Positions 94 through 18,161 of a stretch of DNA of 24,064 nt are shown here, piece by piece. This stretch comes from a virus, in the IMG/VR virus record IMGVR_UViG_3300025164_001337, positions 1-24,064 of that record; one strand, given 5' to 3'. A program made the position numbers and the translations under genes. The notes beneath the pieces were generated by a model. It was not told where the DNA came from. It made no database searches and was given only the letters and a program-made list of their open reading frames with translations. Positions within the stretch are counted from its first letter, which is position 1, and the number at the start of each line of letters is the position of its first letter.

Positions 94-145
94 AGCCCCG
101 TCTCGAGATGACATATCCATGTCGTCTTTTGAGGCGGGGCTTTTT
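94..145 (+). terminator. Intrinsic terminator or attenuator hairpin
   Basis: Bases 94-104 (AGCCCCGTCTC) pair with 131-141 (GAGGCGGGGCT), with one G-U pair, followed by a run of five T at 141-145. Inside the outer stem, 107-114 pairs with 119-126 around an ATCC loop, giving a long two-part hairpin. The hairpin lies only 24 bases upstream of the ATG at 170. It could end the upstream transcript, attenuate the downstream operon, or define a short RNA running from about 54 to 145. Confidence 0.75.
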
Positions 146-169
146 CGTTGGTGCGGAGCGAAGAATCAT

Positions 170-1252
170 ATGGCGACGCTGATGACTTTCGGCATCAGGC
201 AGGCCCCTGCCGCGACGACGTCCAGAACGATCGCCATCTGGAACAAGACGACTGAGCCATTTGACCTCATCACGTCCCAGGCAATAAGTGTATCTGCGAC
301 TGAATTTGCAATTCGTCTGCCAGACAACATTCCTATCCTCGTGACGCTAACAGATGTTGCTGGGCAGAACCAGTATGTAAGCAGATGCCATACTGACACC
401 ATCGCGCCAGCGATCGACGTCTTCTCCGGCAGGCTCTGTGTGCTCTGGTATGACGAGGAGACGACAAGCTCAACAGCGTCCAGTTCTACATCCTCGTCTT
501 CGACAGCCGCAGCCGAGACATCACAATCTAGCAGCTCGTCGCTTTCATCTTCTTCGTCGAGCAGCCTCTCGAGTTCGTCGTCGACTTCGACATCGTCTAC
601 GTCAGTATCCACACCGTCTTCTTCGTCTTCATCTTCCACGTCTTCGTCTTCCACGAGTAGCAGCGTATCGACAAGTTCCGAGAGCTGCGAAACCGAGCCT
701 TCAGCCAGTTCGCAAAGTTCGTCCTCGAGTACCTCATCATCGTCGACAAGTTCTCTGAGCAGCAGTTCGCAGAGCAGTAAATCGTCTTCTTCCTCATCCT
801 CGACTTCTTCGGTGTCGTCTTCTTCCTCTTCATCGTCTTCAACTTCCTCTTCGAGTACGGTGGCCAGCGTTACTAGCAGCTCGTCGTCGCAGTCTTCATC
901 TTCATCATCTTCGAGCTCCACGTCATCCACGGTGGCAGGAGAAACTAGCAGCTCATCATCGCAGAGTTCTTCATCTTCCTCTTCGACTTCATCTTCGTCC
1001 TCTTCCTCGCAGAGTTCTTCCTCATCGAGTAGCCAGTCTTCGAGTTCGTCGTCGTCTTCCTCGACATCGTCTACTAGCACGGCTGGTATGACGACGAGCA
1101 GTACTGCTGGAGAGACGACTTCGCAATCCCTGAGTTCGTCTAGCTCCTCATCTACTTCATCGACTTCGTCTACCGTTGAATCGCTGACGACATCGAGCAG
1201 CACATCGTCCAGTACGCAGCCCGAGATGACTTCAAGCACTCAGAGCGACTAA
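170..1252 (+). CDS. Serine-rich low-complexity protein with small N-terminal domain
   Basis: This is a 360-residue protein of unknown function. Residues 1 to about 98 form an ordinary, probably beta-rich domain with no family I recognise. Residues about 99-360 are almost wholly Ser and Thr, broken at intervals by short elements such as STVASVTSS, STVAGETSS and STAGMTTSS. The reading frame is also open from an ATG at 119, but that start lies inside the terminator hairpin, so I chose the ATG at 170, preceded by GGAG at 155-158. No signal peptide or membrane segment is evident. The same interrupted poly-serine style recurs in three genes downstream, which suggests a virion surface protein or extended stalk. 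The serines could carry glycans, but nothing in the sequence proves this. It sits immediately before the small gene at 1263. Confidence 0.75.
   Translation: MATLMTFGIRQAPAATTSRTIAIWNKTTEPFDLITSQAISVSATEFAIRLPDNIPILVTLTDVAGQNQYVSRCHTDTIAPAIDVFSGRLCVLWYDEETTSSTASSSTSSSSTAAAETSQSSSSSLSSSSSSSLSSSSSTSTSSTSVSTPSSSSSSSTSSSSTSSSVSTSSESCETEPSASSQSSSSSTSSSSTSSLSSSSQSSKSSSSSSSTSSVSSSSSSSSSTSSSSTVASVTSSSSSQSSSSSSSSSTSSTVAGETSSSSSQSSSSSSSTSSSSSSSQSSSSSSSQSSSSSSSSSTSSTSTAGMTTSSTAGETTSQSLSSSSSSSTSSTSSTVESLTTSSSTSSSTQPEMTSSTQSD
461..1249 (+). repeat. Poly-Ser/Thr coding low-complexity tract
   Basis: About 260 codons are nearly all Ser or Thr. They use a mixture of TCN and AGY serine codons, so the DNA is only a degenerate repeat of TCGTCTTC-like units. 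Codon mixing argues that the amino-acid composition is selected, not simple microsatellite expansion. Short STVA/STAG elements break the tract roughly every 15-40 residues. Confidence 0.85.
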
Positions 1253-1686: not shown

Positions 1687-4600
1687 ATGCCGAAGCCAAA
1701 ACCAGGTCAATCTCAAGACGACTTCGTGGCCATGTGTGTGCCGATGGTGCTTGATGAAGGTACGGCAAAAGACCAGGACCAAGCCGTGGCTATATGCAAT
1801 TCAATGTATGAAGAGCACGGCAAGCAGGCTCATGCGATGGGGCCAGGTGACGACGAATCTGAGTCCGACTGGATGGGGCGATGTGTATCGGAGATGGAGT
1901 CCGAAGGCAAAGACAAGGATGAGGCACAGTCTGCTTGCGAGACGATGTGGCAGCACCATCAGGAACGATCTGCCATGGTTCCAAGCCGGAAAGAAGAATT
2001 GCATGTCAACGAAGGAGAGAGCCAGTCTGAGTTTATCGATCGATGCGTCGCCAAACAGGACGGCATGGACGAAAGCGAAGCTCGGGCTGCTTGCCAGAAG
2101 ATATGGGAGCACCGCAACCAATCGGAGCAAAGGCCTGAAGCTTCAATGCACGAATCATTTGTCGCCAGGATAAAGGGCCGTCGCAATTCCATATCTCGTT
2201 TTGGATACGGTATCACGACGGCAGAGCCATACGTCCGTGCTTTGCTGCAAATGGAAGAGTCTGGTTGCTCGACGGGCCGCACTTGCTCCGTTGAATCACT
2301 TCTCAAGGAGGCTCAATCACGTCTCTGTTGTTCAACGCCCCATATGACCCTAGAGAGTATCGCGACAGCCAAAGACCTTTTTTTAGGGCGGCTGGACGGC
2401 ATCGGCGTCTCTGGCCTTGAGCCTCCCCCCAAGACGCTGATGCTGCTCCGCCACGTAGTCACGACTGACAAGCAGGACCGAGACGGCGACGTACTGGAGA
2501 CTGCTGGGTTCGAGTTGGACCCAGCGGCACCGCTGTTGTGGCAGCACCAGCCGTTTCTGCCGATCGGCAAGGTGCTGCGAGAGGTGGAGCACACGGCACA
2601 CAAGCTGACGGTGATCTCGGCACTACTGGACATGAACGAGTTGACACATGATGCGGCAGTGCTGTTTGAGGCAGACGCACTGCGGTTTAGCCATGGTTTC
2701 CGCGTCCTGGACTACGATGCCATGATGGACGAGAAAGGCGCGGAGACTGGCTCATTCCGGATCAAGAGAGCCGAGGGCCTTGAAGTCTCTGGCGTAAGCG
2801 TGCCGAGCAATACCGATGCTGTGGTGGAGTTGTGGAGCCGCGGCAAGTTCGAGTCAGACGTCGTGCGCTCGTACGCCAAGCATTACGCGAGCAAGCGGCC
2901 TGTGCAGGTGCGAGGTATCGACATCAGGACGAAGCATGTGCAGCCGTTCAACATGAAGAAGATACAGTCGGAGTTTCACCCTGAGCACCAGCGAGCATAT
3001 GCAGCTGTACCAGTGCACGACTGGGCATCGCAATGGTTGGAGTGCGAAGTCAAGGACTTGTACATTACCAGCACGTTCGCGCCATATTTCGCGATGGGAA
3101 ACTTCCTGTCTGCCATGAAGATAGCGATGGACTCGGCCAATCTTCGCGACACGAGGAACCTGGATGACTACGGCCACGATTGGCCGATCAAACGAGAAAC
3201 AGTGCAGTTGAACTCCAAGAAGTCTGACACCTTCATTGTGAATGGCTTTCAATTCTGGACTTGTGACAATCATAAGTGTTGCCTCGACTTGCAGAGATAT
3301 CACGACGGATTGGAAATCAGACGCTACGACGTGGACGACCGCGGCGTTAAGTTCTTTGAGGATTGCTGGGAGTGGGTGCGCGAGAACAATTACCTCAAGG
3401 GCGAGGCATTCCGACTGGGCGGCGGGTTTATTGAACGCAAAGGCCAGTCGCTAGACGAAATCTTTTTGGTTGACGGCAACAAGATCGCACTCAAACGCGC
3501 TGTCAAGTTGGCCAGCAGCGGAACCCAATTCGCCAGCCGAGGCATGATCTTTCTTGGGCCTCCAGGCACTGGCAAGACACTCTCGGCCAGGGCATTGCTT
3601 AACAACACGGATGCTACATTCATCTGGGTCAGTGCTAAGGATATGTATGGCGCCTCGAGCATCAGCATGGCGTTCAAGATTGCAGGTGAGCTCGCGCCGT
3701 CGATTATCTGCTTCGAGGACATTGATTCGTTCTTCAGTGATTATGCTTTCGATCTGCTGAAGACGGAGCTTGATGGACTCGACAAACGCACCGGTGTTTT
3801 GACGCTCCTCACTACGAACTATCCAGCCATGCTTCCCGAGACTTTGATCGACAGGCCAGGCAGGTTCCACGACGTGCTGCAATTCGACTTGCCGGACGAG
3901 CATTGCAGACGGGACATGTTCCGTGTGTGGTCTGCCTCTGCATCCAACAATCTCATTGAGGACATGGTGAAGCGGACAGCTGGGTTCAGCGGCGCCCACA
4001 TCAAGGACCTCTGTTCGTTCGCGGACGTGCTGAGGCGCGACGACGACATGCAGATCGATGAAGCGCTCGAGAAGGCCTACGGAAAAGTCTCTGAGCAGCG
4101 ACGTCTGGTGAGAGGCCTGTCGTCGCAGCAAAGAATGCGGCGAGACTATTCCAAAATGGACATCGCTGTGTCAGTATTGGAGAAGATTTGTCCTGCCTGT
4201 GCCAAGAGGGCCAGGGCCAAAGGGTTCAAGTCTGTCAAGCTCGACAAAGCTGTGAGTGCAGAGATGGTTGCCGGGCTATGTGACGCAGTTGGTAGCGATC
4301 CTGGATTTTTCAGCAACTGCATGGAATTCGACTTCGGCGAGTTCGAGGGGGAGATCGGGAGCAAAGAGGGCTTTTGCAATTGGCTGCATGAGACGTGCGG
4401 TTTCGGATACCCAGGGGAACACGAATCAGCCGTTGTGCGGATCAAAGCCGGCCGCGTGATATCGCAGAAGAACATGGACCTGCTGGGTGAAGTGCGAGCT
4501 GACTTGGAGGAGCTTTCTGGCATGGAAATGGCGAGAGCTGCCAAGGCTTTGTGTGAACGATGCGCGAGCAAAGTGCAGAGCGTAATTGAATCGGCAAAGC

Positions 4601-4866
4601 CGGCGGAAGAGCCGGAAGGCAAGAGCGTCTGTATGGGCCACGTCCACATGACAGTAGACGACATGGAGCCGCTCATTACCGATGTGATCAAGAAAGAGGT
4701 TGCTGCTAAGCAACCCGATCTAACCGATGTGGTCAACTTCGTCCTTGGTGCAAGTCAAGACGATCTGGCCCGCGTTAAACATACGTTGGACTTGGTGGTC
4801 GACCTCACGGCGTACAACGCCGCTGCGGAAGAGTACCGGGCCTTCGAAAGATCGATTGATTTGTAA
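1687..4866 (+). CDS. HK97-type prohead protease fused to AAA+ ATPase
   Basis: This is a 1059-residue multidomain protein. Residues about 8-145 hold three related repeats of the pattern [DE]F/W..RC...(D/E)EA..AC..MW.H. Residues about 245-400 match the prohead (U35/S78-like) protease fold: WQHQP with the likely catalytic His287, RFSHGF with the likely Ser335, and LEVSGVSVPSN near 365-375. Such proteases cut scaffold and capsid N-termini during head maturation. Residues about 505-800 form a AAA+ module with Walker A GPPGTGKT (624-631), Walker B IICFEDID (673-680), sensor-1 TTN (709-711) and DRPGRF (722-727) carrying an arginine-finger candidate. The last 250 residues include CPAC and CERC pairs and a helical end. 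Most phage prohead proteases are about 200-250 residues and lack an ATPase. The frame is continuous across every junction. The gene lies 18 bases upstream of the capsid gene, as expected for a head protease. Confidence 0.88.
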   Translation: MPKPKPGQSQDDFVAMCVPMVLDEGTAKDQDQAVAICNSMYEEHGKQAHAMGPGDDESESDWMGRCVSEMESEGKDKDEAQSACETMWQHHQERSAMVPSRKEELHVNEGESQSEFIDRCVAKQDGMDESEARAACQKIWEHRNQSEQRPEASMHESFVARIKGRRNSISRFGYGITTAEPYVRALLQMEESGCSTGRTCSVESLLKEAQSRLCCSTPHMTLESIATAKDLFLGRLDGIGVSGLEPPPKTLMLLRHVVTTDKQDRDGDVLETAGFELDPAAPLLWQHQPFLPIGKVLREVEHTAHKLTVISALLDMNELTHDAAVLFEADALRFSHGFRVLDYDAMMDEKGAETGSFRIKRAEGLEVSGVSVPSNTDAVVELWSRGKFESDVVRSYAKHYASKRPVQVRGIDIRTKHVQPFNMKKIQSEFHPEHQRAYAAVPVHDWASQWLECEVKDLYITSTFAPYFAMGNFLSAMKIAMDSANLRDTRNLDDYGHDWPIKRETVQLNSKKSDTFIVNGFQFWTCDNHKCCLDLQRYHDGLEIRRYDVDDRGVKFFEDCWEWVRENNYLKGEAFRLGGGFIERKGQSLDEIFLVDGNKIALKRAVKLASSGTQFASRGMIFLGPPGTGKTLSARALLNNTDATFIWVSAKDMYGASSISMAFKIAGELAPSIICFEDIDSFFSDYAFDLLKTELDGLDKRTGVLTLLTTNYPAMLPETLIDRPGRFHDVLQFDLPDEHCRRDMFRVWSASASNNLIEDMVKRTAGFSGAHIKDLCSFADVLRRDDDMQIDEALEKAYGKVSEQRRLVRGLSSQQRMRRDYSKMDIAVSVLEKICPACAKRARAKGFKSVKLDKAVSAEMVAGLCDAVGSDPGFFSNCMEFDFGEFEGEIGSKEGFCNWLHETCGFGYPGEHESAVVRIKAGRVISQKNMDLLGEVRADLEELSGMEMARAAKALCERCASKVQSVIESAKPAEEPEGKSVCMGHVHMTVDDMEPLITDVIKKEVAAKQPDLTDVVNFVLGASQDDLARVKHTLDLVVDLTAYNAAAEEYRAFERSIDL

Positions 4867-4884: not shown

Positions 4885-6483
4885 ATGTTGAAACTGACCG
4901 ACAATTTGAAGTCTTGGCTTCGTCAAAACAAGGGCGTAGCTGAGGATGCAGATGATGCTAGTTACACCAAAGCTGTGGCAGAAGGGATTTGCGACGGTAG
5001 CATCACGCCTCAGCAGGTCACTGAGCTAACCAAGGACCCGGACGCCGACAAGGCCAGTGTACTTACCAAGACGTTGACGTCTATGCAGGATGCCATGGCG
5101 GCAATGGCCAACCAAGTTGCGACGCTGTCAAAGCCAGCGGATCAGAAGGCCAGACCGACAAGCAATGTCACGACGAGCATGATCGTGAGTGCGGACCCTG
5201 TCACTGGCGGTGAGCCGAATATCCGCCACATCACGGCGGACAAGCAGTACTCGACGACCAAGACGGCTTTGACGTTTCCGCTCAAGGAAGCCAACGGACG
5301 AAGTCACCCGAAGGCCAACCAGCGAGTCATGGATATTGGCCGATACATTGATGAACCGAGCGAGTTGGATCGTGCCGTGAATGGGGCCTATGGGAAGATG
5401 ATGATCTTCGGACCGCTCATTGCCAGAGGCATCATGCCGAAGTCAATCATTACTGATCACGACAAAGAGTTGATCCAATATGCGGCGAGGAACATGAATT
5501 GGATCGGCTGCATCCGCGAGGTCGGCGATGACGAGCTTTACGGCGGCAAGGATGTCTACAACCGTCGACTCACCGAGTGGGAAGTTAAGCAGGTGCTAGA
5601 CGAGAGCGGCGCCAGCCAAGGTTTGGAGATCGTGCCAATCGTATTCGACGACTCGATCTTAACTCAGCCATTGCTCCACTCAGAACTTTATCCTCGTGTC
5701 GAGGTGGTGAACATTCCTCGGGGACGCCGGATTGAAGGTGGGGTCGTCGCGAATCCTACGATCACTTGGGCGGATACCGAGGCAACGCAGGTTCCACTCG
5801 TGACGACGACTGCGTTCGTGGGAGCGTTCGACACCAACATCCATGTCGTGCAAAGTGCGATCCTGCTTGGATTGGACTTCCTGTCTGACACGCCGATCGC
5901 ATTTGGCGACTTGCTGACACGGAATTACGGAGAAGTGCTGCTGCACGACCTTGACCGCGTGATCGCGGTTGGCAACGGCACGACGGAGCCTGATGGCGTG
6001 TACAACGCCAGCGGCTCGACGAATGTCACTGTCGATGCAGGTTCGTGGACGACAGGCAAGCTGATGGAGCTGATGTTTGGCGTGCCCAAGGAGTACAGGA
6101 CAGGAGACAGAAACCGAATTTGTTATGCCGCCAATGAGACTACTTACCGCCGGATTCGGCAAATTGCCACTGGCGTCACTGGTGACGATCGATTCCTGTT
6201 TGGCAACGACGTCGAGACCTACACGCTTCTTGGCCACCCATTTTTGATCCAGGGTGACTTTGGTAATGCACAGGCAGTGTTCTGCAACTTTGCGCATTAT
6301 CGCATGTACAAGAGGCTTGGGCTGCAGATCAAGTCGACTACCGAGGGCCAGACGCTCGTACGGAACAACCATATGCTCGTGTGTGCACGTGCGAGGTACG
6401 GCGGCCAGTTGGCACAGCCTGCTATTGGTGGAACACCTTCTACTGGCATGTACGTGGCCCATACGGCCAACGGGCAAGTGTAG
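4885..6483 (+). CDS. HK97-fold major capsid protein
   Basis: This 532-residue protein follows the protease gene and has a strong ribosome binding site (AGGAG at 4872-4876) before ATG 4885. Residues 1 to about 110 are helical and charged, as in a scaffold-like delta domain removed by a prohead protease. The remainder has the character of an HK97 capsid protein: an E-loop-like charged stretch, a long spine-helix region, and the typical late segment with RNRICYAANETTYRRIRQI, a GHPF...GDFGNA motif and a C-terminal QIKSTTEGQTLVRNNHM region. The product would form the icosahedral shell. Cleavage by the adjacent protease is inferred from gene order and N-terminal character, and the cleavage site cannot be read with certainty. 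The gene is followed by a very stable hairpin that may limit read-through or protect the message. Confidence 0.88.
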   Translation: MLKLTDNLKSWLRQNKGVAEDADDASYTKAVAEGICDGSITPQQVTELTKDPDADKASVLTKTLTSMQDAMAAMANQVATLSKPADQKARPTSNVTTSMIVSADPVTGGEPNIRHITADKQYSTTKTALTFPLKEANGRSHPKANQRVMDIGRYIDEPSELDRAVNGAYGKMMIFGPLIARGIMPKSIITDHDKELIQYAARNMNWIGCIREVGDDELYGGKDVYNRRLTEWEVKQVLDESGASQGLEIVPIVFDDSILTQPLLHSELYPRVEVVNIPRGRRIEGGVVANPTITWADTEATQVPLVTTTAFVGAFDTNIHVVQSAILLGLDFLSDTPIAFGDLLTRNYGEVLLHDLDRVIAVGNGTTEPDGVYNASGSTNVTVDAGSWTTGKLMELMFGVPKEYRTGDRNRICYAANETTYRRIRQIATGVTGDDRFLFGNDVETYTLLGHPFLIQGDFGNAQAVFCNFAHYRMYKRLGLQIKSTTEGQTLVRNNHMLVCARARYGGQLAQPAIGGTPSTGMYVAHTANGQV

Positions 6484-7316: not shown

Positions 7317-7517
7317 ATGCTCAATAGCAGAATCAAGGCACAGAGACCATCCCGAATTGGCGAAGGTGGCGATTGTGTTTACTGCAATGGCGTTGGCCGA
7401 ATACGAATGAAGATTGCCGGGGGAGATCGCGGTAGGAGCAATCGTGCAAAGCAGACAAAAGTGTGTGCTTACTGTCGTGGGACTGGTAAGGCAACGAAAG
7501 GATATTTGACAAAGTGA
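7317..7517 (+). CDS. Small CxxCxGxG zinc-finger-like protein
   Basis: This is a 66-residue basic protein. The frame is open further upstream, but the extension would run through the terminator. ATG 7317 has a strong GAGGAGG just upstream, so this start is preferred. Two motifs, CVYCNGVG (Cys20, Cys23) and CAYCRGTG (Cys50, Cys53), match the CxxCxGxG zinc-binding repeats of the DnaJ cysteine-rich domain. Together they can bind one zinc ion. The surrounding Arg and Lys could contact nucleic acid or a protein partner. It overlaps the connector gene by four bases (GTGA). The function is unknown. A chaperone-like or assembly role is only a guess from the motif. Confidence 0.72.
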   Translation: MLNSRIKAQRPSRIGEGGDCVYCNGVGRIRMKIAGGDRGRSNRAKQTKVCAYCRGTGKATKGYLTK

Positions 7518-8326
7518 TAGCCAACCAGGACGACATCAAGTTGCTACTGGGGTTGTCCTCGTCCATTACGGATGAGGAGCAGGGGTTTCTGTCGTTGGTG
7601 CATCCATTGGCTGAAGGACTCGTCAAGCAATACCTCAAATACGATCCGGAGCAGAAGTCGCACACCGAATACTTTCCGAGGCACCTGCGGAGCGGCGGGC
7701 CAGGATACGATTACGAGGGGCGCTGGACGTCACGTAGTGGCCTGGCGATATGGGAATCGCGAGATAGCGACAACACGCTGCAGCTGACACATCTGCCATT
7801 GCGGCGCATCACTAGTGTGCGAATTGATACGGCAGCCAAGCATGGCGATGCTGCCAATAGCTTCGACTTAGACACAGTGCGCACCCAAGGCATAGATTAT
7901 TGGGGCGATTGGGATCAGACGAACGTGGGCTACAGCGGTGAGCTTTACTCATATGGCTCATGGCCGAGCGAGCCCGGAACAGTCAAGGTCGTGTACCGAG
8001 CGGGCTACTCGCCGGCTGAATTGCTGGGCACGGCGACTGAGGATGCACTGGTAGGCGATGTGATCACGACTGCCGGTGTGGACGGATCGGGAATAACGCG
8101 GGCTGTCCATATCACGGTGATCTCGCAGTTTCTAAAAAATATGGCATTGAAGAAGAAGGATATCGCCGGCTTCACACCTGGAGCACTGCTTGGCGAGCGA
8201 TTGGGCGACTATAGCTATCAGGTTGACAGGGGGACATTTGGGGCAGCAGGTCTTGCCGTCTCGCTGCCGGATGAGGCCAAGGAGCAACTCGAGGCATATA
8301 GACACTGGGGGCTCGCGAGACTATGA
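7514..8326 (+). CDS. Head-tail connector protein (gp6-like)
   Basis: This is a 270-residue protein starting at GTG 7514, which overlaps the preceding stop. The N-terminal half, with DDIKLLLGLSSSITDEEQG and a helix containing LAEGLVKQYLKYDPE, resembles gp6/gp15-type connector proteins that form the ring under the portal. A later LTHLPLRRITSVRID segment and a VVYRAGYSP segment are also typical of longer members. The C-terminal part, about residues 190-270, has the helix ITRAVHITVISQFLKNMALKK that often ends these proteins. It is longer than HK97 gp6 (about 110 residues). The order connector, closure protein and gp10-like protein supports the call. It shares an ATGA overlap with the next gene. 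Confidence 0.75.
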   Translation: MIANQDDIKLLLGLSSSITDEEQGFLSLVHPLAEGLVKQYLKYDPEQKSHTEYFPRHLRSGGPGYDYEGRWTSRSGLAIWESRDSDNTLQLTHLPLRRITSVRIDTAAKHGDAANSFDLDTVRTQGIDYWGDWDQTNVGYSGELYSYGSWPSEPGTVKVVYRAGYSPAELLGTATEDALVGDVITTAGVDGSGITRAVHITVISQFLKNMALKKKDIAGFTPGALLGERLGDYSYQVDRGTFGAAGLAVSLPDEAKEQLEAYRHWGLARL

Positions 8327-8691
8327 GCCTGTTGGAAAAACTTCCGCACACGGTAAGCCACCTGCGCAAGACATACGCGAGGGACCAGTACATCGGCAAC
8401 ACGACGGACACAGAGGAGTTGGCCACGAGCGTGCGTTGCTGGATCCAGACAGTCGGACAGTCGGAGGTGCAGCAGTATGAGAAGGCGGACCAGTTGATCA
8501 CGCACAAGGTGTACTACAAAACGCAGCCGACATTGCGTCCTGGAGACCTGATTCGCGTGACGGCCGGGCCAAGCTATGTCGGAAAAGACTTCAACTTTGA
8601 ATCACTTGCTGATGCATCTGCCGGTTTAGGGAAGTTATTCAAGGTGATGGTGAACGAAGAGAATAACGTACCAGTTACGTTTGCAGGATAA
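8323..8691 (+). CDS. Head closure / head-tail adaptor protein
   Basis: This is a 122-residue protein whose ATG overlaps the preceding stop (ATGA). Size and sequence style fit the small beta-barrel head-closure family: a charged N-terminal stretch, then strands around VRCWIQTVGQSEVQQYEK, THKVYYKTQPTLRPGDLIRV and LGKLFKVMVNEENNVPVTF. The phrase with 'LRPGDLIRV' is characteristic of the strand-turn region of such adaptors. The product would sit beneath the connector ring and close the head after packaging. The call depends strongly on position between connector and gp10-like genes. Confidence 0.68.
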   Translation: MSLLEKLPHTVSHLRKTYARDQYIGNTTDTEELATSVRCWIQTVGQSEVQQYEKADQLITHKVYYKTQPTLRPGDLIRVTAGPSYVGKDFNFESLADASAGLGKLFKVMVNEENNVPVTFAG

Positions 8692-9296
8692 TGGCCATGC
8701 CGCGTTTTACCGTCGGAGGAGCAGTTACCGAGGGGATAGTGAAGGCCGGAGGAGTGCACTCGGCCGAAGCGTTGGGCATCCATTTGGAGCCACGCCTGGT
8801 AGGAGGAGTGACACTCGGAGCAGAGCGAGGAATTTCTAAAGGCACATTCCGAAGCGTGAAATCGGCTGTGTCGCGGATGTCCAAGATACGCACTGGCAAA
8901 ACAGAAGCCACTGTCGTCTGGAACGGCGAGAAGCTCGAGAAAATCCTAGAACTTGAATTCTCTAAGCGGATCAAGCTTGCTACGCAGCTGGTCAAGGACC
9001 AAGTAAAGCTGAATCTCAACAGGTCGGTGTTGAAGTATAAGGGGCCTATAAGCAAGAAGATACGAGTATTGCCAGAAAGCCGCTCGAGACCAGGCGAGTT
9101 TCCGCGAAAAGAGACTGGCGATTTGCAGAAGAATATCTTCGGCGAGACGCCACGTCCCGACTGGGGTGTTGTAGGGACAACGTATGGTTATGGCTTGTTG
9201 CTTGAGACGCAGATGAATAGATCGTACCTACGTCGGACGCTGCTTGAGATGCAGCCGAAGATCAGGCAGATACTGGTGAAGGCAGTTTCACTTTGA
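8691..9296 (+). CDS. HK97 gp10-like neck/tail protein
   Basis: This 201-residue protein starts at ATG 8691, sharing one base with the previous stop (TAATG). Residues about 80-201 carry the signature of gp10-like neck proteins: a long basic amphipathic helix (KLEKILELEFSKRIKLATQL), then SRPGEFPRKETGDLQKNI near residues 130-147, then a GVVGTTYGYGLLLE strand. The N-terminal 75 residues are an extra glycine-rich region not typical of the family, containing hydrophobic GGV/GGA patches. The family acts in the neck or at the head-proximal end of the tail. The downstream tail-completion paralogues fit this placement. Confidence 0.72.
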   Translation: MAMPRFTVGGAVTEGIVKAGGVHSAEALGIHLEPRLVGGVTLGAERGISKGTFRSVKSAVSRMSKIRTGKTEATVVWNGEKLEKILELEFSKRIKLATQLVKDQVKLNLNRSVLKYKGPISKKIRVLPESRSRPGEFPRKETGDLQKNIFGETPRPDWGVVGTTYGYGLLLETQMNRSYLRRTLLEMQPKIRQILVKAVSL

Positions 9297-9297
9297 A

Positions 9298-9477
9298 ATG
9301 ATACACCCAGTTGTCAAAGTATGGCAACATAGTATGGAGCAGGCGAGCAAAGACGAGCAGGAGCAGTCTATGGCCAAAAACACATGTGTTCGGTGTGGCA
9401 GGCCGGTAATCGGCATAGCGAGTACGCAGAACATCTTGTGCCGCGCCTGTGCAAGGGACTTGTTCGGTGATGACTGA
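9298..9477 (+). CDS. Small zinc-ribbon protein
   Basis: This is an open frame of 59 residues filling the gap between two supported genes. The ATG at 9298 lies one base after the preceding stop. A second in-frame ATG at 9370 has a better ribosome binding site (AGGAG at 9359-9363, six bases away) and would give a 35-residue protein. Both versions contain CVRCG and CRAC, a CxxC...CxxC zinc-ribbon pattern 15 residues apart, and both end four bases into a TGATGG junction with the next gene. The packing and motif support a real gene, but its role is unknown. Which start is used cannot be settled from sequence. Confidence 0.6.
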   Translation: MIHPVVKVWQHSMEQASKDEQEQSMAKNTCVRCGRPVIGIASTQNILCRACARDLFGDD

Positions 9478-11681
9478 TGGCTACGGAGGCAGGTACGTGG
9501 CGACTGGACGAGGCGATCGCGGCACACTGGGAATCAAGAGGGCTCGACACCGACTTCCGCGCCGAATGGCTCGATCCGACTGCGATGGAGTACGAGCCGC
9601 TGCACGACGGGATGGCCAGACCGGAGCCGCCAGGTCCGTACTGCGTGTACGAGAAAGACGAGCCGGAGATACTGGCGAGGATGACAGGGATTGACAACAG
9701 CGGAGACGATAGGGAGTTGCAACGGTGGACGTTTCGATTCAAGGTGCACGCACAGGATACGAGCAGCGAGAGCGCGAAGAGCATTGCTCAACGGCTGGCG
9801 AAGAAGATCGCTGCCGCCTTCGACCCCCACAATGCTATCCAATTCGATGGCGTTGCGCATGTCGTGACGGAGCGGGGCCCGGATTGGCACGACCAGGAGG
9901 GGGAACAAGAGGCGTCGTGGACGCTGCAGTTCTCGATTCTGGTGGACGCGACAGTGGGAGCCTTCGGCGGCGAGGCCGAGTTCAGTTCGAGCAGCAGCTC
10001 GTCCGAAACGTTGACCAGCTCAATGTCGTCTTCCTCAAGCTGCTCGAGTGTTACGGAGCCTATTGCTGAGGAGGATGATGTGCTGGACTTCGGCGATATC
10101 GGTGGCGTGTACGACAGCCAGGCAGCAGCCGTAGCCAACCGGGCTGCGCTCATCGCCTATCTCACCACCCGTGTCAACGAGCCTGTCGAGCTGGGGTTCC
10201 GCGGACCTGTGGACTATCTCGACAGTAAACGTCAGCCGGCCAATGTCTACCTGGACCTGTCAGCTGGGGCGATCGCGATCACTGTGGGCGGGTCCGGAAA
10301 TATGTCGCACCTGACGTTCTTCGGTGGCTCGAAGATCTTCGGCGTGAATGCGGCCACGCCGGCAACGCCGATCTTCCAGATCACGCGCGGGTCGGGGCAG
10401 ATGCCTCGTGTTGTGATTCGAGGCCTGGCTTTCGAGTCCGATGGGTCCGTGATCAAGTTCGTCTACGGGGGATCGGGTGTCGTGCTGGAGGATGTCAAGA
10501 TCGATGACTTCACTGGGGCTGGGTCAATCGACCACGAGGACTGGACCGACGTGGAGGCCGAGACCTGCAGCTACGGCGTCTGGCTGGAGGATGCCGACGG
10601 GGCCCGGATCCAGAACCTGCAGATCAAGCAGGGTAGCGGCCACGGGATCGTGGCCACCAGGCTGCATGCCGGGGACGTCGATGCCCGGATTCAGTTGTGT
10701 GAGGGTGCCGGATTCAAACTGCAGCAGTTCAACGGCAATCGTGCTCACCTCTGGGCCGAATCCTGCAATGGCTACGGGCTTCTGGCCCGTGACTGCGGCG
10801 GCGACCGGCGGAGCGGAGGGGTCAAGGTCGCGAACGATGGGGCGCCGAATGACTGGAGGGCATGGTTTGAGGCCAACAACGGGCGAGGCACGAGCCACGG
10901 GGCCAGCGGCTACAGGTTCTCCCAGTTTAAACTGGCCAACTGCACGAGGATCAAGATGGCTGGCCACAGCGGCTGGCGGGACAATCAGGCGAGGCTCGAC
11001 AGAATATCTCGGTTGCGGAATGAGTTCGTCGAGGACTACTACCTAGACCCGAGCGTGGATCCTGACTTGTATTTGGTAGGTGCAGCCGGGGCCGGCGACG
11101 AATACCTAGTCAACGTCGCGAACATCACGCTGCCGCCGGCTGGGTTCGGCAACGCGAGTTGCACGAACTGGGACACGGTTTGGACAGACCCCGGCGACAG
11201 GCCGACAGCGACGATCGTTGGGAGCGGGACGGCGAGCGACCCGGAGCGGATTCGGATCACTTGGCCCGGCGGCTGCTTCGACGCCACGAGTGGGACAGAC
11301 ACAGCCTACTGGAGACCGTTCTGGGCCGTGGCCTTGAGCTCGCCTGGAAGCTATTTTTTCACTGCTCAAATCAAGGCAACGACATCCGTCGCAGGGACAT
11401 ATTGTGCATCTCGGGAAAGCTTATCGGTGGCGAATCGCCAGACGAACTCGCTTGGCAGCTTCTCGATTGCACCAGTGTCTGGGGCCATCACGGGGCTGAC
11501 GCTTTGGGACACGCACAGCCGTTGGCTCAGCGGTTCATTTACGGTGGACGATATCCGGTCTGACATCTCGCCACAATTTGCCGCTTGGGATAACGGCATG
11601 CAAGATCTGGACGGGGACGCCAGTCAAGACACCGAAATTATTGTGGATATTTACCAACTGAGGCTTTACAAGTTTGTGTGA
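9477..11681 (+). CDS. Tail-completion-like domain fused to beta-helix spike
   Basis: This is a 734-residue protein in four parts. Residues 1 to about 165 are paralogous to the whole next gene, sharing GLDT, ARPxPPGPYxVYEK, ESAKSI.xRLAK, AFDP and RGPDxH in order. By position and size this looks like a tail-completion or tail-terminator protein. Residues about 169-191 are a short Ser-rich linker. Residues about 205-505 have repeated short strands with Gly/Asn turns, as in right-handed beta-helices of phage spikes and pectate-lyase-like enzymes. Residues about 545-734 form a separate, probably beta-sandwich, C-terminal domain. A spike fused to a neck or tail-completion component is unusual and suggests a neck-borne depolymerase or adhesin. 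The DNA of the beta-helix part is visibly richer in G and C than its flanks. Catalytic residues cannot be assigned. Confidence 0.72.
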   Translation: MATEAGTWRLDEAIAAHWESRGLDTDFRAEWLDPTAMEYEPLHDGMARPEPPGPYCVYEKDEPEILARMTGIDNSGDDRELQRWTFRFKVHAQDTSSESAKSIAQRLAKKIAAAFDPHNAIQFDGVAHVVTERGPDWHDQEGEQEASWTLQFSILVDATVGAFGGEAEFSSSSSSSETLTSSMSSSSSCSSVTEPIAEEDDVLDFGDIGGVYDSQAAAVANRAALIAYLTTRVNEPVELGFRGPVDYLDSKRQPANVYLDLSAGAIAITVGGSGNMSHLTFFGGSKIFGVNAATPATPIFQITRGSGQMPRVVIRGLAFESDGSVIKFVYGGSGVVLEDVKIDDFTGAGSIDHEDWTDVEAETCSYGVWLEDADGARIQNLQIKQGSGHGIVATRLHAGDVDARIQLCEGAGFKLQQFNGNRAHLWAESCNGYGLLARDCGGDRRSGGVKVANDGAPNDWRAWFEANNGRGTSHGASGYRFSQFKLANCTRIKMAGHSGWRDNQARLDRISRLRNEFVEDYYLDPSVDPDLYLVGAAGAGDEYLVNVANITLPPAGFGNASCTNWDTVWTDPGDRPTATIVGSGTASDPERIRITWPGGCFDATSGTDTAYWRPFWAVALSSPGSYFFTAQIKATTSVAGTYCASRESLSVANRQTNSLGSFSIAPVSGAITGLTLWDTHSRWLSGSFTVDDIRSDISPQFAAWDNGMQDLDGDASQDTEIIVDIYQLRLYKFV

Positions 11682-12193: not shown

Positions 12194-15100
12194 ATGGCCA
12201 ACCGTTCGGCGGAGAGCGATATCCAGCTTCTGGTCAAGTCGACCATGATGCTCACTGTCGACGATGGATGGCGGACGAGCGTAAAGGTGGGCGGCTGGGT
12301 GTTGAAGCAGCATTTGCTGACTGGAGTGGAATCCGATCAGGCGAATCGAGGTTGGGGGTACGAGGGTACGATAGCGAGCGGGAATGTGGTTGACTTAGAC
12401 CTCTACGACATGGCTGGACTGAACACCGGCGGCGGGGCTGGCCGTGATGGGCTCGGCCAGGCTCTGGCCATGGAGGAGATCGTATCTCTGGGGATCGCGA
12501 AGATTTCCGGTAGCGGGCAATTGGAGGTCATGCCTACACAGCCAGCCAACTATCTGACATGGGTACCGCCACTCACGGTCGCGGATGGAAATGCCCTGAA
12601 GACTGACGGCGTGGCGCTCATGCATCAGTCGCACACAGATGCGTTTGATGTCGAGGATGGCTCGAGTCACGTTTTGCGTCTGGGTGCCAACGGCGGCGAC
12701 GTGACATACCGTGTCTACCTAATCGGCCGCCATGACGACCAGTTGTCCTCCAGCAGCACGCTGTCGACATCTTCACTCAGTTCCATGACGACATCTGTCT
12801 CTGGTAGCTCTGTCAGCAGCTCGAGCTCTCTCTCCGTGTCGTCCTCGAGTTCGTCCCTCTCAGTTTCATCATCGTGCTCTTCTCTGTCTATGTCTTCATC
12901 CTCGAGCTCGCTATCCGTTAGTTCCTCGAGCAGCAGTCTATCCGTGTCGTCAAGTTCGTCGAGCTCGCAGTCTATCTCGTCTGTGACGATAACTTCATCC
13001 TCGCAAAGCGTAAGCTCATCCAGCTGGTCCAGTTTCAGTTCGAGCCTGAATTCATCCTGCAGCACGATTGCCAGGACCAGTTCTTCAACATCGAAGAGTT
13101 GTTCGAGCCAAACGATGTCCACATCGAGCTCGATGGAATCCGGTGTTACGTCCTCGTCCAGCAGCACGGCTGGGAGAACTACGTCTAGTACAGTCGGCCA
13201 GTCGACAACGTCTGTCTCGAGCAGCGTGGGGCGGACTACCTCGAGCTCCAGCACGGTAGCCAGCGTGACATCATCGACTGTCGCCAGGACGACGTCGTCG
13301 AGCTCAAGCTCCGAAAGCTCATCCTCAAGTACCGTTGCGAGATCGACATCAAGTACCGTGGCGCGATCTACTTCCAGCACAATCGGCGAAACTACGTCTA
13401 GCACGGCTGCTTCACTGACCTCCTCCAGTTCGTCCACCTCTTCGACAATCGTTGAAACAACGTCCACGAGCTCGTCAATCACAGGATCCATTGAGAATCT
13501 GCAGGCTACCGTGTGGGCCTACAACCAGATCAGCCTCTCGTGGGACGCAACCGGGGTGAACTGGTACGACGTGGAGGTGCAGGACGGTGGCGGGCGGTGG
13601 AACCACGTGCGGAGCGTGTACGACAACGGGGTGGATATGGCCGGCTTCGATGCGGCCACGACATACAGTTTTCGCGTGCGAGGAGTTGAGAATACTTGGC
13701 CGGACTGGAGCTACACCGACTACTCGGCTGTGGTGACGCCTACGACCAGTGCATATCAGGCGGCTCCCACGTTCACCGTCACGGACGACACATCTTGGAA
13801 CACGGCCTATGTCAACGCAGAGGCTGGCGACGTTATAGAGATTCTGCCGGGAACAGTCCTGACAGAGAAGACGGCGCCGCCATGGCGAGTTGGATCCGGT
13901 AAGTTCGTCACAATCCGATCCGCTGCCATGGCATTACTGCCAGGTTTTGACCAGCGGATTGGACCAAGTGATATCGGCAACATGCCGATGTTTCGCACAC
14001 GACAGCAAGTTGCCGGCGCAATGCATGTTGGCCCAGGAAGTCACCATCTCTCTTTTGAGGGTATTCGTTTTGAAGCCGATCAACCGACGCAATACCGCGT
14101 GAATTACATCGTTGTGTTTAACGAAGCTTTCCAAGATGTTAACAACGATCCGTATGACATCGAGTTTCATCGGTGCTGGGTCGAGAGCCCGAGGCCAGGT
14201 ACAGTTTTCGGTGCGACGACATTTACGGAATGCGATTCAGGATTTTACAGTTATGGTGCAGATCGCGTTGTGATCAAAGACACTTATTGCAAGGAGCTGT
14301 CTGCAGAAACGCAAGATGCGCCATCGATTGGTGGGACGCGCGGTAAGGAATGGGCAGTAAACAACTGCCATCTTGAGGGGAGCATGCCAGTGTTCTGGGG
14401 CGGTGCGAGCCATCCAGAAACTGACGTGTTGCCAGACTTGCACAGCTATCGCCGCAATCACATCGTCAGGCCTACATATTGGATTCCGACGGAGGCCGAC
14501 TACGACGGGCGATCCCGCAACCGCAAAAACATGTTTGAAATCAAATATGGCCAGCGGTTCCTGATTGAGGACAACTATTTCCAACGTGGTTATTGCACAG
14601 ATTCTTATGTCGTGATTCTGACGCCACGTGCTGACATTTCCTGGTCTGGCATTTACGACGTGCAGATTCGATACAATCACTTCGACACGATTGACGGAGG
14701 ATTCAGGATTGCAGGAAGCGATGGCTTGTACTCGCCACCGAATGATGGCTTTGCAACAAAGCGACTAACAGTATCGCACAATTTGATCGAGGATTTTGGT
14801 AAACTTTCGCAGCTCGGCAAGCGAGAATACGAGTTTAATACATCCTCGCCAGAATGGGATCGTTTAGAGGACATCTGTTTCCGCCGCAACAGTTGGGTAA
14901 CTGACGAGTTGTCCGGTCTGACGCCTTGGTTTTCACCTACCAATGCTGTTGCGCTTTGGGAAGATGGCTTCGGGCTTGTCGGCCAGTTCATTTACGAAAA
15001 CAACATCACATGTGGACTACTCGGCAGAGACGGTGGTGCGAATGACATAACTGTATTGTCATATGTCATAGGAGATAATCGCTGGACCTTTGAGAATAAC

Positions 15101-15334
15101 GTAATGGTCCTAGCAGATTCGAGCCTCAACAATTCGACAAAATTCCCAAACAACTATAATCTTGCAACCGGTCCTGGCGACTCTGGCTACAACATGGATG
15201 GTGTTGGGTTTGTTGACTGGAGAAACGGCAATTGGCGACTTCATGAAACAAGTGCGCATTACAGCGCACAAGGCTGCGACAACTCAGTTTACGATCGCAC
15301 GGCCCACTGTATTGATGGAGACTGGAGCGCGTAA
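12194..15334 (+). CDS. Modular fibre: repeated domain, poly-Ser, FN3, beta-helix
   Basis: This is a 1046-residue protein. Residues 1 to about 183 are one of three copies of a domain (see 15335 and 17394), recognised by RSAESD at the start, then D(I/L)DLYD, MPT.PANY.TWVP.LTVA.GNALK and a final G.V.Y..YLIGRHDD. Residues about 184-430 are poly-Ser/Thr broken by STVARTTSS-like elements. Residues about 433-518 resemble a fibronectin type III domain (WAYNQISLSWD, YSFRVRGVE). Residues about 525-1046 form a long right-handed beta-helix-like region with repeated N/D-rich strand-turns, like pectate-lyase or chondroitinase-type spikes. The likely role is receptor binding or polysaccharide cleavage at the virion surface. 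No secretion signal is present. Start ATG 12194 lies three bases after the previous stop. The beta-helix DNA looks more AT-rich than the FN3 segment, which is consistent with mosaic origin. Confidence 0.75.
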   Translation: MANRSAESDIQLLVKSTMMLTVDDGWRTSVKVGGWVLKQHLLTGVESDQANRGWGYEGTIASGNVVDLDLYDMAGLNTGGGAGRDGLGQALAMEEIVSLGIAKISGSGQLEVMPTQPANYLTWVPPLTVADGNALKTDGVALMHQSHTDAFDVEDGSSHVLRLGANGGDVTYRVYLIGRHDDQLSSSSTLSTSSLSSMTTSVSGSSVSSSSSLSVSSSSSSLSVSSSCSSLSMSSSSSSLSVSSSSSSLSVSSSSSSSQSISSVTITSSSQSVSSSSWSSFSSSLNSSCSTIARTSSSTSKSCSSQTMSTSSSMESGVTSSSSSTAGRTTSSTVGQSTTSVSSSVGRTTSSSSTVASVTSSTVARTTSSSSSSESSSSSTVARSTSSTVARSTSSTIGETTSSTAASLTSSSSSTSSTIVETTSTSSSITGSIENLQATVWAYNQISLSWDATGVNWYDVEVQDGGGRWNHVRSVYDNGVDMAGFDAATTYSFRVRGVENTWPDWSYTDYSAVVTPTTSAYQAAPTFTVTDDTSWNTAYVNAEAGDVIEILPGTVLTEKTAPPWRVGSGKFVTIRSAAMALLPGFDQRIGPSDIGNMPMFRTRQQVAGAMHVGPGSHHLSFEGIRFEADQPTQYRVNYIVVFNEAFQDVNNDPYDIEFHRCWVESPRPGTVFGATTFTECDSGFYSYGADRVVIKDTYCKELSAETQDAPSIGGTRGKEWAVNNCHLEGSMPVFWGGASHPETDVLPDLHSYRRNHIVRPTYWIPTEADYDGRSRNRKNMFEIKYGQRFLIEDNYFQRGYCTDSYVVILTPRADISWSGIYDVQIRYNHFDTIDGGFRIAGSDGLYSPPNDGFATKRLTVSHNLIEDFGKLSQLGKREYEFNTSSPEWDRLEDICFRRNSWVTDELSGLTPWFSPTNAVALWEDGFGLVGQFIYENNITCGLLGRDGGANDITVLSYVIGDNRWTFENNVMVLADSSLNNSTKFPNNYNLATGPGDSGYNMDGVGFVDWRNGNWRLHETSAHYSAQGCDNSVYDRTAHCIDGDWSA
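12746..13480 (+). repeat. Poly-Ser/Thr coding tract
   Basis: About 245 codons are mainly Ser and Thr with mixed codons, joining the N-terminal repeated domain to the FN3 domain of the fibre protein. The second half has recurrent STVARSTSS, STVGQSTTS and STIGETTSS elements spaced roughly every 10-25 residues. Confidence 0.85.
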
Positions 15335-17380
15335 ATGTCGAATGTGATCAAAACAATCGGTTCTGGTGGAACATTTGCTAGTGTTCAGGCGTGGGCTGAT
15401 GACATAAATACAAATGCGAATGGCTTCTATATCTCTGGTGATATCGCTATCGGCCAGGTATTAAATGACTTGTCGACAGCCAGCGGAAGCCATGTATCAT
15501 TTGCTGCAGCCAATGGCACGAATCCGATCTCCAAGGCGATACTGGAGCCATCATCTGGAAATGCAAATAATGGCATTGTTGCAGGCGGCATAGTTCTAAC
15601 CCAGACTAACGGAGATAACTATGGGATATACCTTGCTGCTGCCGTAGATTATCACGTAGAAATTCGAGATCTGGAGATTTACCGCAATCAGTCGTCTGGC
15701 GGGACAAACGACTTTAGCCTGATACACAATGCGTGCACCAATTCCATTGAGTTAATAGTCAAGCGATGCATTGTCCATACTAATCAATTTGGTGCAGCAA
15801 CAGGAACGCCCATTGGAATCAAGGGTATTTCGGCTGGGGCTACAACACGTGCAGTGCGGTGCCTGGTCTTCGACATCGGAAATCCAACAACCGGATTTGG
15901 GATTGGAATTGCCGATGCGGTGACGATTCACAACTGCTGTGTGTATAATTGCGCTGGCAACGGCATCGGCAGTGACAATATCTTCCACGATGTTCGCAAC
16001 TGCATATCGATGGATAACGGCTCCACGGACTACGCTGGTGCGTGGGCCGCCACAAAAGATCGGAACATGTCATCGGATGCCACAGCGCCGGGCACGACTG
16101 TCTACATTAATAAAGTCAGTACAGCGATCTGGACAGCTCCTGGTAGTGACGATTTTACACTCCAGCTCGGAACTGACGCCATCGGAACCGGCCAGGACTT
16201 GGGCAGCGGCTACGAACAAAACATCGACATCAAACATGACTTGATTGCCGGAGAGGTATGGGACCTTGGGGCATTCCAGTCTGGCGAGATGAGCACGTCC
16301 AGCACGGTGGCTCGCTCTAGTTCCAGCACAGTGGCACGCTCGACATCCAGTACCGTGGCTCGTAGCTCGTCCTCGCAAACTGAGTCTGAGTCGTCTCTCA
16401 GTACCGAAAGCAGCTCGACAACATCGTTCTCATCTTCCAGCACGGCGGCGATGACGACGTCTTCCTCATCCTCGAGCAGCAGTTCCACGAGCTCGTCCTC
16501 GAGTTCAAGCACCGAGGCAAGAACAACATCCTCGTCCTCCTCTACTTCTTCGTCCTCTTCGTCGACTTCTTCGTCTTCGTCATCATCCTCTTCTACCTCT
16601 TCCTCAAGTTCTAGCAGCAGCTCCACGAGCTCGTCCTCGTCGACGGCAGCGCAGATGACTTCGTCGTCGTCTTCCTCGGCCAGTAGCTCGACATCTTCGT
16701 CGACTTCATCCTCATCAACTTCTTCATCCTCCTCGCTTTCGACTTCGTCTTCATCCTCTCTATCAACTTCGTCGTCTTCCTCTTCGACGTCATCTTCGTC
16801 TTGCAGCGGGACAGATCAGGCCATTGGCACTCGGACCTTATCAGCCTCGCTCAAGTTATTTATGTCATCGACGATAACAAACGTGATTGACGATGGGTCA
16901 TCCGCAAGTGTTGCGGCCATGAAGGGCCGGTTGCTGGATCTGGTACTGACGACAGGGATCGCCGACAACAAGGCAACTCGGGCTTGGCGATTGAAAGACG
17001 GATCAATCGGCTCTGGGTCCACCAAGGACATTGACTTGTACGATCTGGTTGGCGAGGACATCGGTGCTGGTGACGGGCGAGATGCACTCGGGCAGCTTAT
17101 GGTCCAGAAACAAATAGTAGCCTTCGTTCTCGAGAAGACTGGCGGCGCGGGTTTGCTCGAACTGATGCCTACCAACCCTGCCAACTACTGCACGTGGGTT
17201 CCAGTCCTTACGGTCGCAGCTGGGAATGCATTGAAGACTGGAGGTCTTGCGTTGTTGGTTCAGCCGGCTGCGTCCGCTCTTCGCGTGACAGATGCTTCGA
17301 GCCACAAGATGCGCTTGGGTGCCAGCGGTGGCGCAGTGACATACGATCTGTGGCTGGTTTCTCGGCATTACGGAACATAA
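15335..17380 (+). CDS. Modular fibre: beta-helix, poly-Ser, repeated domain
   Basis: This is a 681-residue protein whose ATG directly abuts the previous stop. Residues 1 to about 315 look like a beta-helix, with an N-terminal GTFASVQAWADDI segment and repeated short strands such as EIRDLEIYRN and HNCCVYNCAGNGI. Residues about 318-490 are poly-Ser/Thr with STVARSSSS and STAAMTTSS elements. Residues about 495-681 are a second copy of the domain found at the N-terminus of the preceding protein, including DIDLYD, MPTNPANY.TWVPVLTVA and GNALKTGG. The order is therefore reversed relative to that protein. The role is probably a virion surface adhesin or spike. The beta-helix part is visibly more AT-rich than the serine-rich part. 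The enzyme activity, if any, is unknown. Confidence 0.75.
   Translation: MSNVIKTIGSGGTFASVQAWADDINTNANGFYISGDIAIGQVLNDLSTASGSHVSFAAANGTNPISKAILEPSSGNANNGIVAGGIVLTQTNGDNYGIYLAAAVDYHVEIRDLEIYRNQSSGGTNDFSLIHNACTNSIELIVKRCIVHTNQFGAATGTPIGIKGISAGATTRAVRCLVFDIGNPTTGFGIGIADAVTIHNCCVYNCAGNGIGSDNIFHDVRNCISMDNGSTDYAGAWAATKDRNMSSDATAPGTTVYINKVSTAIWTAPGSDDFTLQLGTDAIGTGQDLGSGYEQNIDIKHDLIAGEVWDLGAFQSGEMSTSSTVARSSSSTVARSTSSTVARSSSSQTESESSLSTESSSTTSFSSSSTAAMTTSSSSSSSSSTSSSSSSSTEARTTSSSSSTSSSSSSTSSSSSSSSSTSSSSSSSSSTSSSSSTAAQMTSSSSSSASSSTSSSTSSSSTSSSSSLSTSSSSSLSTSSSSSSTSSSSCSGTDQAIGTRTLSASLKLFMSSTITNVIDDGSSASVAAMKGRLLDLVLTTGIADNKATRAWRLKDGSIGSGSTKDIDLYDLVGEDIGAGDGRDALGQLMVQKQIVAFVLEKTGGAGLLELMPTNPANYCTWVPVLTVAAGNALKTGGLALLVQPAASALRVTDASSHKMRLGASGGAVTYDLWLVSRHYGT
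16291..16803 (+). repeat. Poly-Ser/Thr coding tract
   Basis: About 170 codons are mainly Ser and Thr, connecting the beta-helix to the C-terminal repeated domain. STVARSS elements cluster at the start and STAAMTT, STEARTT and STAAQMT elements follow. Codons are mixed, as in the other tracts. Confidence 0.85.
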
Positions 17381-17393
17381 CAGGAGCAATTAT

Positions 17394-18161
17394 ATGTCGA
17401 CACGCAGTGCCGAGAGCGAAGTCAAGCTGACCTTCTCGGCAACGATCAAAAATACGCTGGACGACGGTCAAGTAGCTCAAGTCCTGCTGAGCGACACAGT
17501 GATCTCAGGCAATCTGGCCAGTGGCGTGGATGCCAATCAGGCGAACCGTGCCTGGGCACGCAAGAGCCATACCTTGGCCTCTGGCAATACAGAGGACATT
17601 GACCTCTATGACTTTGCCGACATCGATATCGGAGCTGGTCTTGGAAACGATGGATTGGGGCTCCCGATGGCACTCGAAGAGGTAGTTACGTTTTGCATCA
17701 AGCAAACATCTGGTGCAGGACGACTCGAATTGATGCCTACCAATCCGTCGAACTATGCGACGTGGGTGCCGCAGTTGACAGTCTCGCTCGGGTCTGCACT
17801 CAAGGCCGGTGGTCTGCTGCTGCTGCATCAGCCAGACGAGGATGCATTCGACATCGAGGATGGCTCATCGCACATGATGCGTGTCGGAGCTAACGGCGGA
17901 GATATCGTTTACGACCTCTATCTGGTTGGGCGACACGATGACGAGGCCTCGAGTTCCTCGAGTTCGTCCACTTCCTCTTCGTCCTCTTCCTCTACATCGA
18001 GTTGCACGACCAGTACGCTTTCGTCGCAGTCCACCTCCTCGAGTTCGTCTTCGTCGAGTTCGACGTCCTCGAGTTCCTCATCATCGTCCTCGTGCACATC
18101 GTCGTCTTCGACAGCGGCCAGGACGACCTCTTCGAGTAGTTCCTGTTCGACCACAACGTAA
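17394..18161 (+). CDS. Repeated-domain protein with C-terminal poly-Ser
   Basis: This is a 255-residue protein. Residues 1 to about 183 are the third copy of the domain also present in the two preceding genes, beginning RSAESE and containing NLASGVDANQANRAW, DIDLYD, MPTNPSNYATWVPQLTV and GDIVYDLYLVGRHDD. The rest is a poly-Ser/Thr tail with a few Cys and one STAARTTSS element, ending the protein without any further domain. It has a good ribosome binding site (AGGAG at 17382-17386, seven bases before ATG 17394). The gene looks like the minimal form of the module. It may be an independent virion decoration protein, or a remnant of a longer fibre whose C-terminal part was lost. It lies 18 bases upstream of the tail tube gene. 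Confidence 0.75.
   Translation: MSTRSAESEVKLTFSATIKNTLDDGQVAQVLLSDTVISGNLASGVDANQANRAWARKSHTLASGNTEDIDLYDFADIDIGAGLGNDGLGLPMALEEVVTFCIKQTSGAGRLELMPTNPSNYATWVPQLTVSLGSALKAGGLLLLHQPDEDAFDIEDGSSHMMRVGANGGDIVYDLYLVGRHDDEASSSSSSSTSSSSSSSTSSCTTSTLSSQSTSSSSSSSSSTSSSSSSSSSCTSSSSTAARTTSSSSSCSTTT
17947..18158 (+). repeat. Poly-Ser/Thr coding tract
   Basis: About 70 codons are mainly Ser, Thr and a few Cys, forming the C-terminal tail of the repeated-domain protein. TCN and AGY codons are mixed. Confidence 0.8.

Follow-up and report, generated by a model that had tools for sequence, protein, structure and literature searches.

Head maturation of the HK97 type follows a textbook order in which assembly is followed by ATP-free proteolysis and expansion, and the HK97-type prohead proteases (Peptidase_S78, TIGR01543, phrog_80) are known to work without ATP. 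To our knowledge, ATP serves head maturation of this type only in DNA packaging. Fusions between the protease and the major capsid protein (MCP) are known as well (phrog_617), and in phage SPN3US the C-terminus of the protease likely carries a packaging signal that is removed by self-cleavage (PMC7411985).

Phage AAA ATPases have been described as stand-alone proteins, for example in Schitoviridae such as Erwinia phage phiEaP8 and as the BCS1 proteins of jumbo phages. The phage BCS1 proteins were proposed to handle folded proteins entering the head (Iyer et al., 2021; PMC7824862), and Bcs1 itself moves its substrates in the folded state (PMC12219900, PMC11143374). MoxR-vWA-peptidase pairs of jumbo phages, also proposed to combine an AAA chaperone with a peptidase for virion assembly (PMC7824862), consist of separate proteins, with an AAA of another clade and a metallopeptidase. 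Here we analyse a stretch of 24,064 bases from an IMG/VR virus record (the window), in which an AAA+ ATPase and a prohead protease share one gene.

A prohead protease gene with an in-frame AAA+ cassette

The gene at 1687-4866 encodes an HK97-type prohead protease with an in-frame AAA+ cassette between the catalytic domain and the C-terminal tail (Table 1). An earlier note on this DNA had read it as one 1059-codon frame joining the two enzymes, and the frame is indeed open and intact, and is found at 100% identity in two further IMG/VR contigs, the longer of which carries a Mu-F-like head protein upstream of the fusion gene. The profile searches proposed in that note recovered both domains: Peptidase_S78 matched residues 281-383 above its cut-off (22.7 bits, cut-off 21), PHROGs matches to a head maturation protease and a major head protein covered residues ~258-407, and Pfam AAA matched residues 620-734 (70.7 bits, E 2e-19). 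The Walker A, Walker B, sensor-1 and arginine-finger elements named in the note are all present; the acidic pair of Walker B reads ED instead of the usual DE, which the note had not described. Three repeats of the C-x-G-x-QA-x-C-x-H type precede the protease domain (1711-2112), of which a relative that lacks the AAA (L008) has one copy only.

Table 1. Coordinates of the fusion gene, its parts and the neighbouring head genes in the window.
Feature	Position	Strand	Basis
Fusion gene, 1059 aa: N-terminal repeats, HK97-type prohead protease, N-domain, AAA+ ATPase, C-terminal tail	1687..4866	+	Open frame of 1059 codons; Pfam/PHROGs
Three Cys-containing helical repeats, residues 9-44, 58-91, 112-142	1711..2112	+	Direct sequence reading; helical in model, pLDDT about 70-89
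Prohead protease domain, residues 250-392	2434..2862	+	Peptidase_S78; phrog_80, phrog_617; 67% identity to AAA-less protease of L008
Catalytic His287 codon	2545..2547	+	H in 58/58 relatives
Catalytic Ser335 codon	2689..2691	+	S in 58/58 relatives
Glu366 codon, candidate third catalytic residue	2782..2784	+	E in 58/58 relatives; putative role
N-domain of AAA module, residues 440-612	3004..3522	+	Model pLDDT 90; N-terminal to AAA domain throughout family; weak Bcs1 fold match
AAA+ domain with C-terminal lid, residues 616-812	3532..4122	+	Pfam AAA; 40-57% identity with the fused AAA of other phages (at least 100 residues aligned)
Walker A GPPGTGKT, residues 624-631	3556..3579	+	G624, G627, G629, K630, T631 in 61/61
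Walker B acidic pair E677-D678, order ED	3715..3720	+	61/61
Sensor-1 Asn711	3817..3819	+	61/61
Arginine-finger candidates R723, R726 (DRPGRFH)	3853..3864	+	61/61
C-terminal tail opening with KAGRVIS motif, residues 920-1059	4444..4863	+	Same tail in AAA-less L008 and L122; candidate prohead-targeting propeptide
HK97-fold MCP with about 237-residue N-terminal extension	4885..6483	+	Pfam Phage_capsid E 4e-21; fold at residues 238-510
Head-tail connector genes, 3' of capsid gene	7514..9296	+	phrog_442 head-tail adaptor, phrog_615 (weak), phrog_5 Neck1

The gene also sits among head genes: in the window the MCP gene starts after a gap of 18 nt, and across the family it lies directly downstream in nearly all members. 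Since connector genes and then tape-measure genes (PHROGs) follow further on, and a Mu-F-like head protein lies upstream in the longer of the two identical contigs, the position is normal for a prohead protease. Thus the protease domain, the catalytic residues, the C-terminal tail and the place directly upstream of the MCP gene are those of the HK97-type family, whereas the roughly 370-residue N-domain plus AAA+ cassette is undescribed for it. The capsid protein of the window had no match among cultured phages. Several proteins encoded in the window (119-1252, 9477-11681, 12194-15334, 15335-17380 and 17394-18161) contain long Ser/Thr-rich low-complexity tracts (SSSSTSSS repeats). They are products of fibre-like or structural genes and of the ORF that precedes the protease; L008, which lacks the AAA, also has such a tract.

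Recurrence and arrangements of the pairing in uncultured phages

A scan of IMG/VR with the whole window protein matched only copies of that protein. The AAA half as query led to a 59-kb contig (L012) that shares the architecture and is 37% identical, whose AAA part retrieved 31 more loci, and an alignment of the N-domain and AAA finally gave 161 related stretches, all relatives being metagenomic contigs. The best 80 of these 161 were kept and clustered at 90% identity into 61 clusters, and their domains were mapped with purpose-built profiles. The family-finding queries contained no protease catalytic domain; as the family consists of the best 80 of 161 matches, stand-alone AAA forms are possibly under-counted in it.

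Among the 61 clusters (best 80 of 161), 53 are protease-N-domain-AAA fusions, three are N-domain-AAA-protease-MCP triple fusions, in three the protease is the adjacent gene (L069, L088, L117), and the remaining two are a frame-broken (L049) and a 5'-truncated (L038) case. All 60 evaluable clusters of this sample thus couple the AAA module to a prohead protease; the existence of split genes also means that covalent fusion is not essential. Peptidase_S78 scores 30-56 bits in L008, L072, L088, L112 and L117, and some members stay under the cut-off. A frameshift between the two domains, which the note had raised against itself, and an assembly artefact are ruled out, as many independent contigs carry an unbroken fusion, which recurs in divergent lineages. 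In L049 (2-2522) the fusion is interrupted in the N-domain and reads as two ORFs, either naturally or through a sequencing error.

The triple fusions (L072, L089, L112, L116) have AAA, Peptidase_S78 and Phage_capsid above Pfam cut-offs in a single frame, and two of the contigs also carry a terminase. One of them, L112, matches the protease-MCP fusions of phrog_617 over residues 439-1091 (E 5e-114) and differs from them by about 400 extra N-terminal residues, which are the N-domain and AAA+ module. Strong internal starts, which would bear on MCP stoichiometry, were sought in the triple fusions and no consistent site was found. Altogether, dozens of divergent tailed phages have the pairing, as protease-AAA, as AAA-protease-capsid and as adjacent separate genes; many uncultured tailed phages carry the AAA cassette inside the prohead protease gene and a few inside the capsid-protein gene.

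The residues expected of both enzymes are invariant across these relatives. His287 and Ser335, which the note had named as likely catalytic, are kept together with Glu366 in all 58 protease sequences, and the Walker A Lys and Thr, E677-D678, N711 and R723/R726 in all 61 AAA sequences (clusters from the best 80 of 161); both activities are therefore under selection. In the same sample the other Walker A positions are less strict (P625 in 49/61, P626 in 59/61, T628 in 58/61). Distances between AAA domains correlate with those between proteases at a Mantel r of 0.47, with 0 of 999 permutations as high, a moderate correlation of the kind expected if the modules were sometimes exchanged.

Several members show further peculiarities. 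The head protein ORF upstream of the fusion in L012 (522-4142, 1206 aa) contains an apparent intein-like insertion with an endonuclease-like part, which begins CFLDGQVPVYTSKGWKAIGTI and ends FVVHNC. L081 (6672-12779) encodes a protease-AAA protein of 2035 residues followed by a 1484-residue ORF, no capsid gene being recognised on the piece analysed. A zinc-ribbon-like segment (CxxCGHK...CPxCGGxMRRxxRPGPG) occurs in the C-terminal regions of L029, L031, L032, L034 and L039, before or after the GRVLS tail. Two successive HK97-fold MCP-like ORFs lie downstream of the fusion in L029, L030, L032, L033, L035, L042, L043, L045, L076 and L098, which suggests a capsid gene duplication in this clade.

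The earlier note knew of no established phage example of such a fusion. This stands for described phages: no report of a prohead protease-AAA fusion was found in the literature searched (subscription journals lay outside its coverage), and the fusion is absent from 50,697 deposited cultured-phage records, where any match covered just one of the two enzymes. It does not stand for uncultured phages, in which the architecture is common. The AAA-part matches among deposited phages were stand-alone AAA proteins only, of N4-like, jumbo and other phages; that of phiEaP8 is 26% identical over 87% of the N-domain and AAA. These proteins share the AAA similarity but are encoded by a gene of their own, and their chain contains no prohead protease. 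A scan of bacterial genomes found no provirus host, its sole match (L020) being a host FtsH, and a plasmid scan gave FtsH-type matches.

The AAA module as an optional cassette

Proteases of the same kind also occur without the AAA. The protease of L008 is 67% identical to that of the window and has the same C-terminal tail, and a protease-only scan yielded 43 complete proteases without AAA versus 21 with it (newly fetched loci plus L008). Pairs of proteases at 80-90% identity differ in the presence of the cassette; when L122 and L022 are aligned, the difference falls after the catalytic domain and ahead of the tail starting GRVLS. Such AAA-less proteases have an unchanged tail; the AAA thus forms an optional in-frame cassette that was repeatedly gained or lost. 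The protease tree requires at least 15 changes of AAA presence, against a mean of 32 and a minimum of 24 after shuffling. Given this patchiness, many related heads can do without the function. A KAGRVIS-type motif follows the AAA domain in many family members.

The head genes around the protease are arranged alike in both situations. The spacing to the capsid gene is the same with and without the cassette, and the MCP N-terminal extension has a median of 122 with AAA versus 114 without. A role of the AAA as scaffold replacement is ruled out on these grounds, the extension being of the same length in both groups, and with spacing and extension unchanged the cassette adds something instead of substituting for the scaffold.

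Two explanations are directly affected by this distribution. The AAA could act as an assembly timer, its oligomerisation and nucleotide state blocking protease activity up to completion of the shell, and ATP turnover then releasing the protease. The placement of the AAA between catalytic domain and tail would suit such a device, which could work with either domain order, but AAA-less relatives with 80-90% identical proteases evidently time their maturation without it, and we regard a timer as very unlikely. Alternatively, the AAA could serve some unrelated purpose, such as host takeover or counter-defence, being only co-expressed with the protease and then cut free by it. Its patchy, mobile distribution fits this, as does the location of the stand-alone Schitoviridae homologues away from the prohead protease. 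A free-floating gene would, however, be expected elsewhere at least sometimes, whereas every evaluable cluster from the best 80 of 161 is protease-coupled, in several arrangements that include fusion to the MCP; mere hitch-hiking is thus highly improbable.

Fold of the AAA module and its possible role in the head

In the AlphaFold model of the full protein, the N-domain and AAA are well predicted (pLDDT about 90) and the protease part poorly. Foldseek with the N-domain and AAA model returned YjoB of Bacillus subtilis first (E 2e-17, 420 columns), then Bcs1 (E 1e-14), followed by FtsH and other classical AAA proteins. The N-domain alone, which models at pLDDT 90, gave a weak match to the Bcs1 fold (E 3e-3). 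No Pfam match to BCS1_N was found in the window protein up to E 0.1, and no membrane-spanning helix is evident in it (hydropathy maximum 1.34 over 19 residues). The predicted module thus resembles YjoB/Bcs1, both chaperone-type AAA proteins, with which it shares the classical AAA motifs and possibly, from the two-domain match, the N-domain plus AAA fold, but it falls short of being called Bcs1, given the weak N-domain match and the missing BCS1_N and membrane anchor; YjoB and Bcs1 are themselves unfused to a protease.

The note had likened the protein to ClpXP or FtsH, an analogy that fares poorly beyond the presence of protease and AAA+ in one chain. As an ATP-dependent protease of this kind, the AAA ring would unfold scaffold or capsid tails and thread them into the fused protease. 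By sequence the AAA domain does score best with the Cdc48/PAN/FtsH families. The aromatic-hydrophobic-Gly (Ar-phi-G) pore loop 1 is nevertheless unconserved (7 of 61 clusters from the best 80 of 161), the domains are ordered or linked differently in the three triple-fusion clusters and the three with split genes, close relatives manage without AAA, and the fold matches favour YjoB/Bcs1. HK97-type proteases are, moreover, known to be ATP-independent, and the partner here is an S78 serine protease, neither ClpP nor an M41 zinc protease. We therefore consider threading into the protease quite unlikely. Accordingly, of the roles proposed in the note, energising cleavage fares worse and remodelling the head during maturation fares better.

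The Bcs1-type fold would also suit a cargo loader, which would translocate or deposit folded phage proteins into the prohead, or would itself be packaged and ejected with the DNA. The same role was proposed by Iyer et al. for stand-alone phage BCS1 (PMC7824862), and fusion to the protease or the MCP would put the AAA inside the prohead. The window protein nevertheless has no evident Bcs1-like membrane segment, and we judge this explanation unlikely.

Our best reading, guided by the fold models, is that the AAA may act as a head-assembly chaperone in cis with the protease, rather than as a ClpXP-like degrader. The AAA part would assemble into a ring, as YjoB and Bcs1 do, and bind folded or partly assembled head precursors. 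Before proteolysis or as it occurs, ATP would be used to chaperone or remodel capsid subunits bearing their delta-type scaffold extension, or cargo on its way into the head. Protease and tail would carry the AAA to the prohead in cis, the tail being, by analogy with SPN3US, a candidate targeting propeptide, and self-cleavage of the protease would free or destroy the AAA during maturation. We hold this chaperoning scheme, with delivery in cis and release or destruction by self-cleavage, to be plausible though just short of probable.

More tentatively still, these phages might represent an unrecognised class of virus heads, in which an ATP-driven AAA+ step takes place inside or on the prohead and is encoded in cis with the maturation protease, sometimes also with the MCP. 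Natural phage pairs with and without the cassette, whose proteases are 80-90% identical, make the question directly testable. A cassette this conserved and widespread, encoded with the protease and in some phages with the MCP, suggests an ATP-dependent protein-remodelling step in many uncultured phages.
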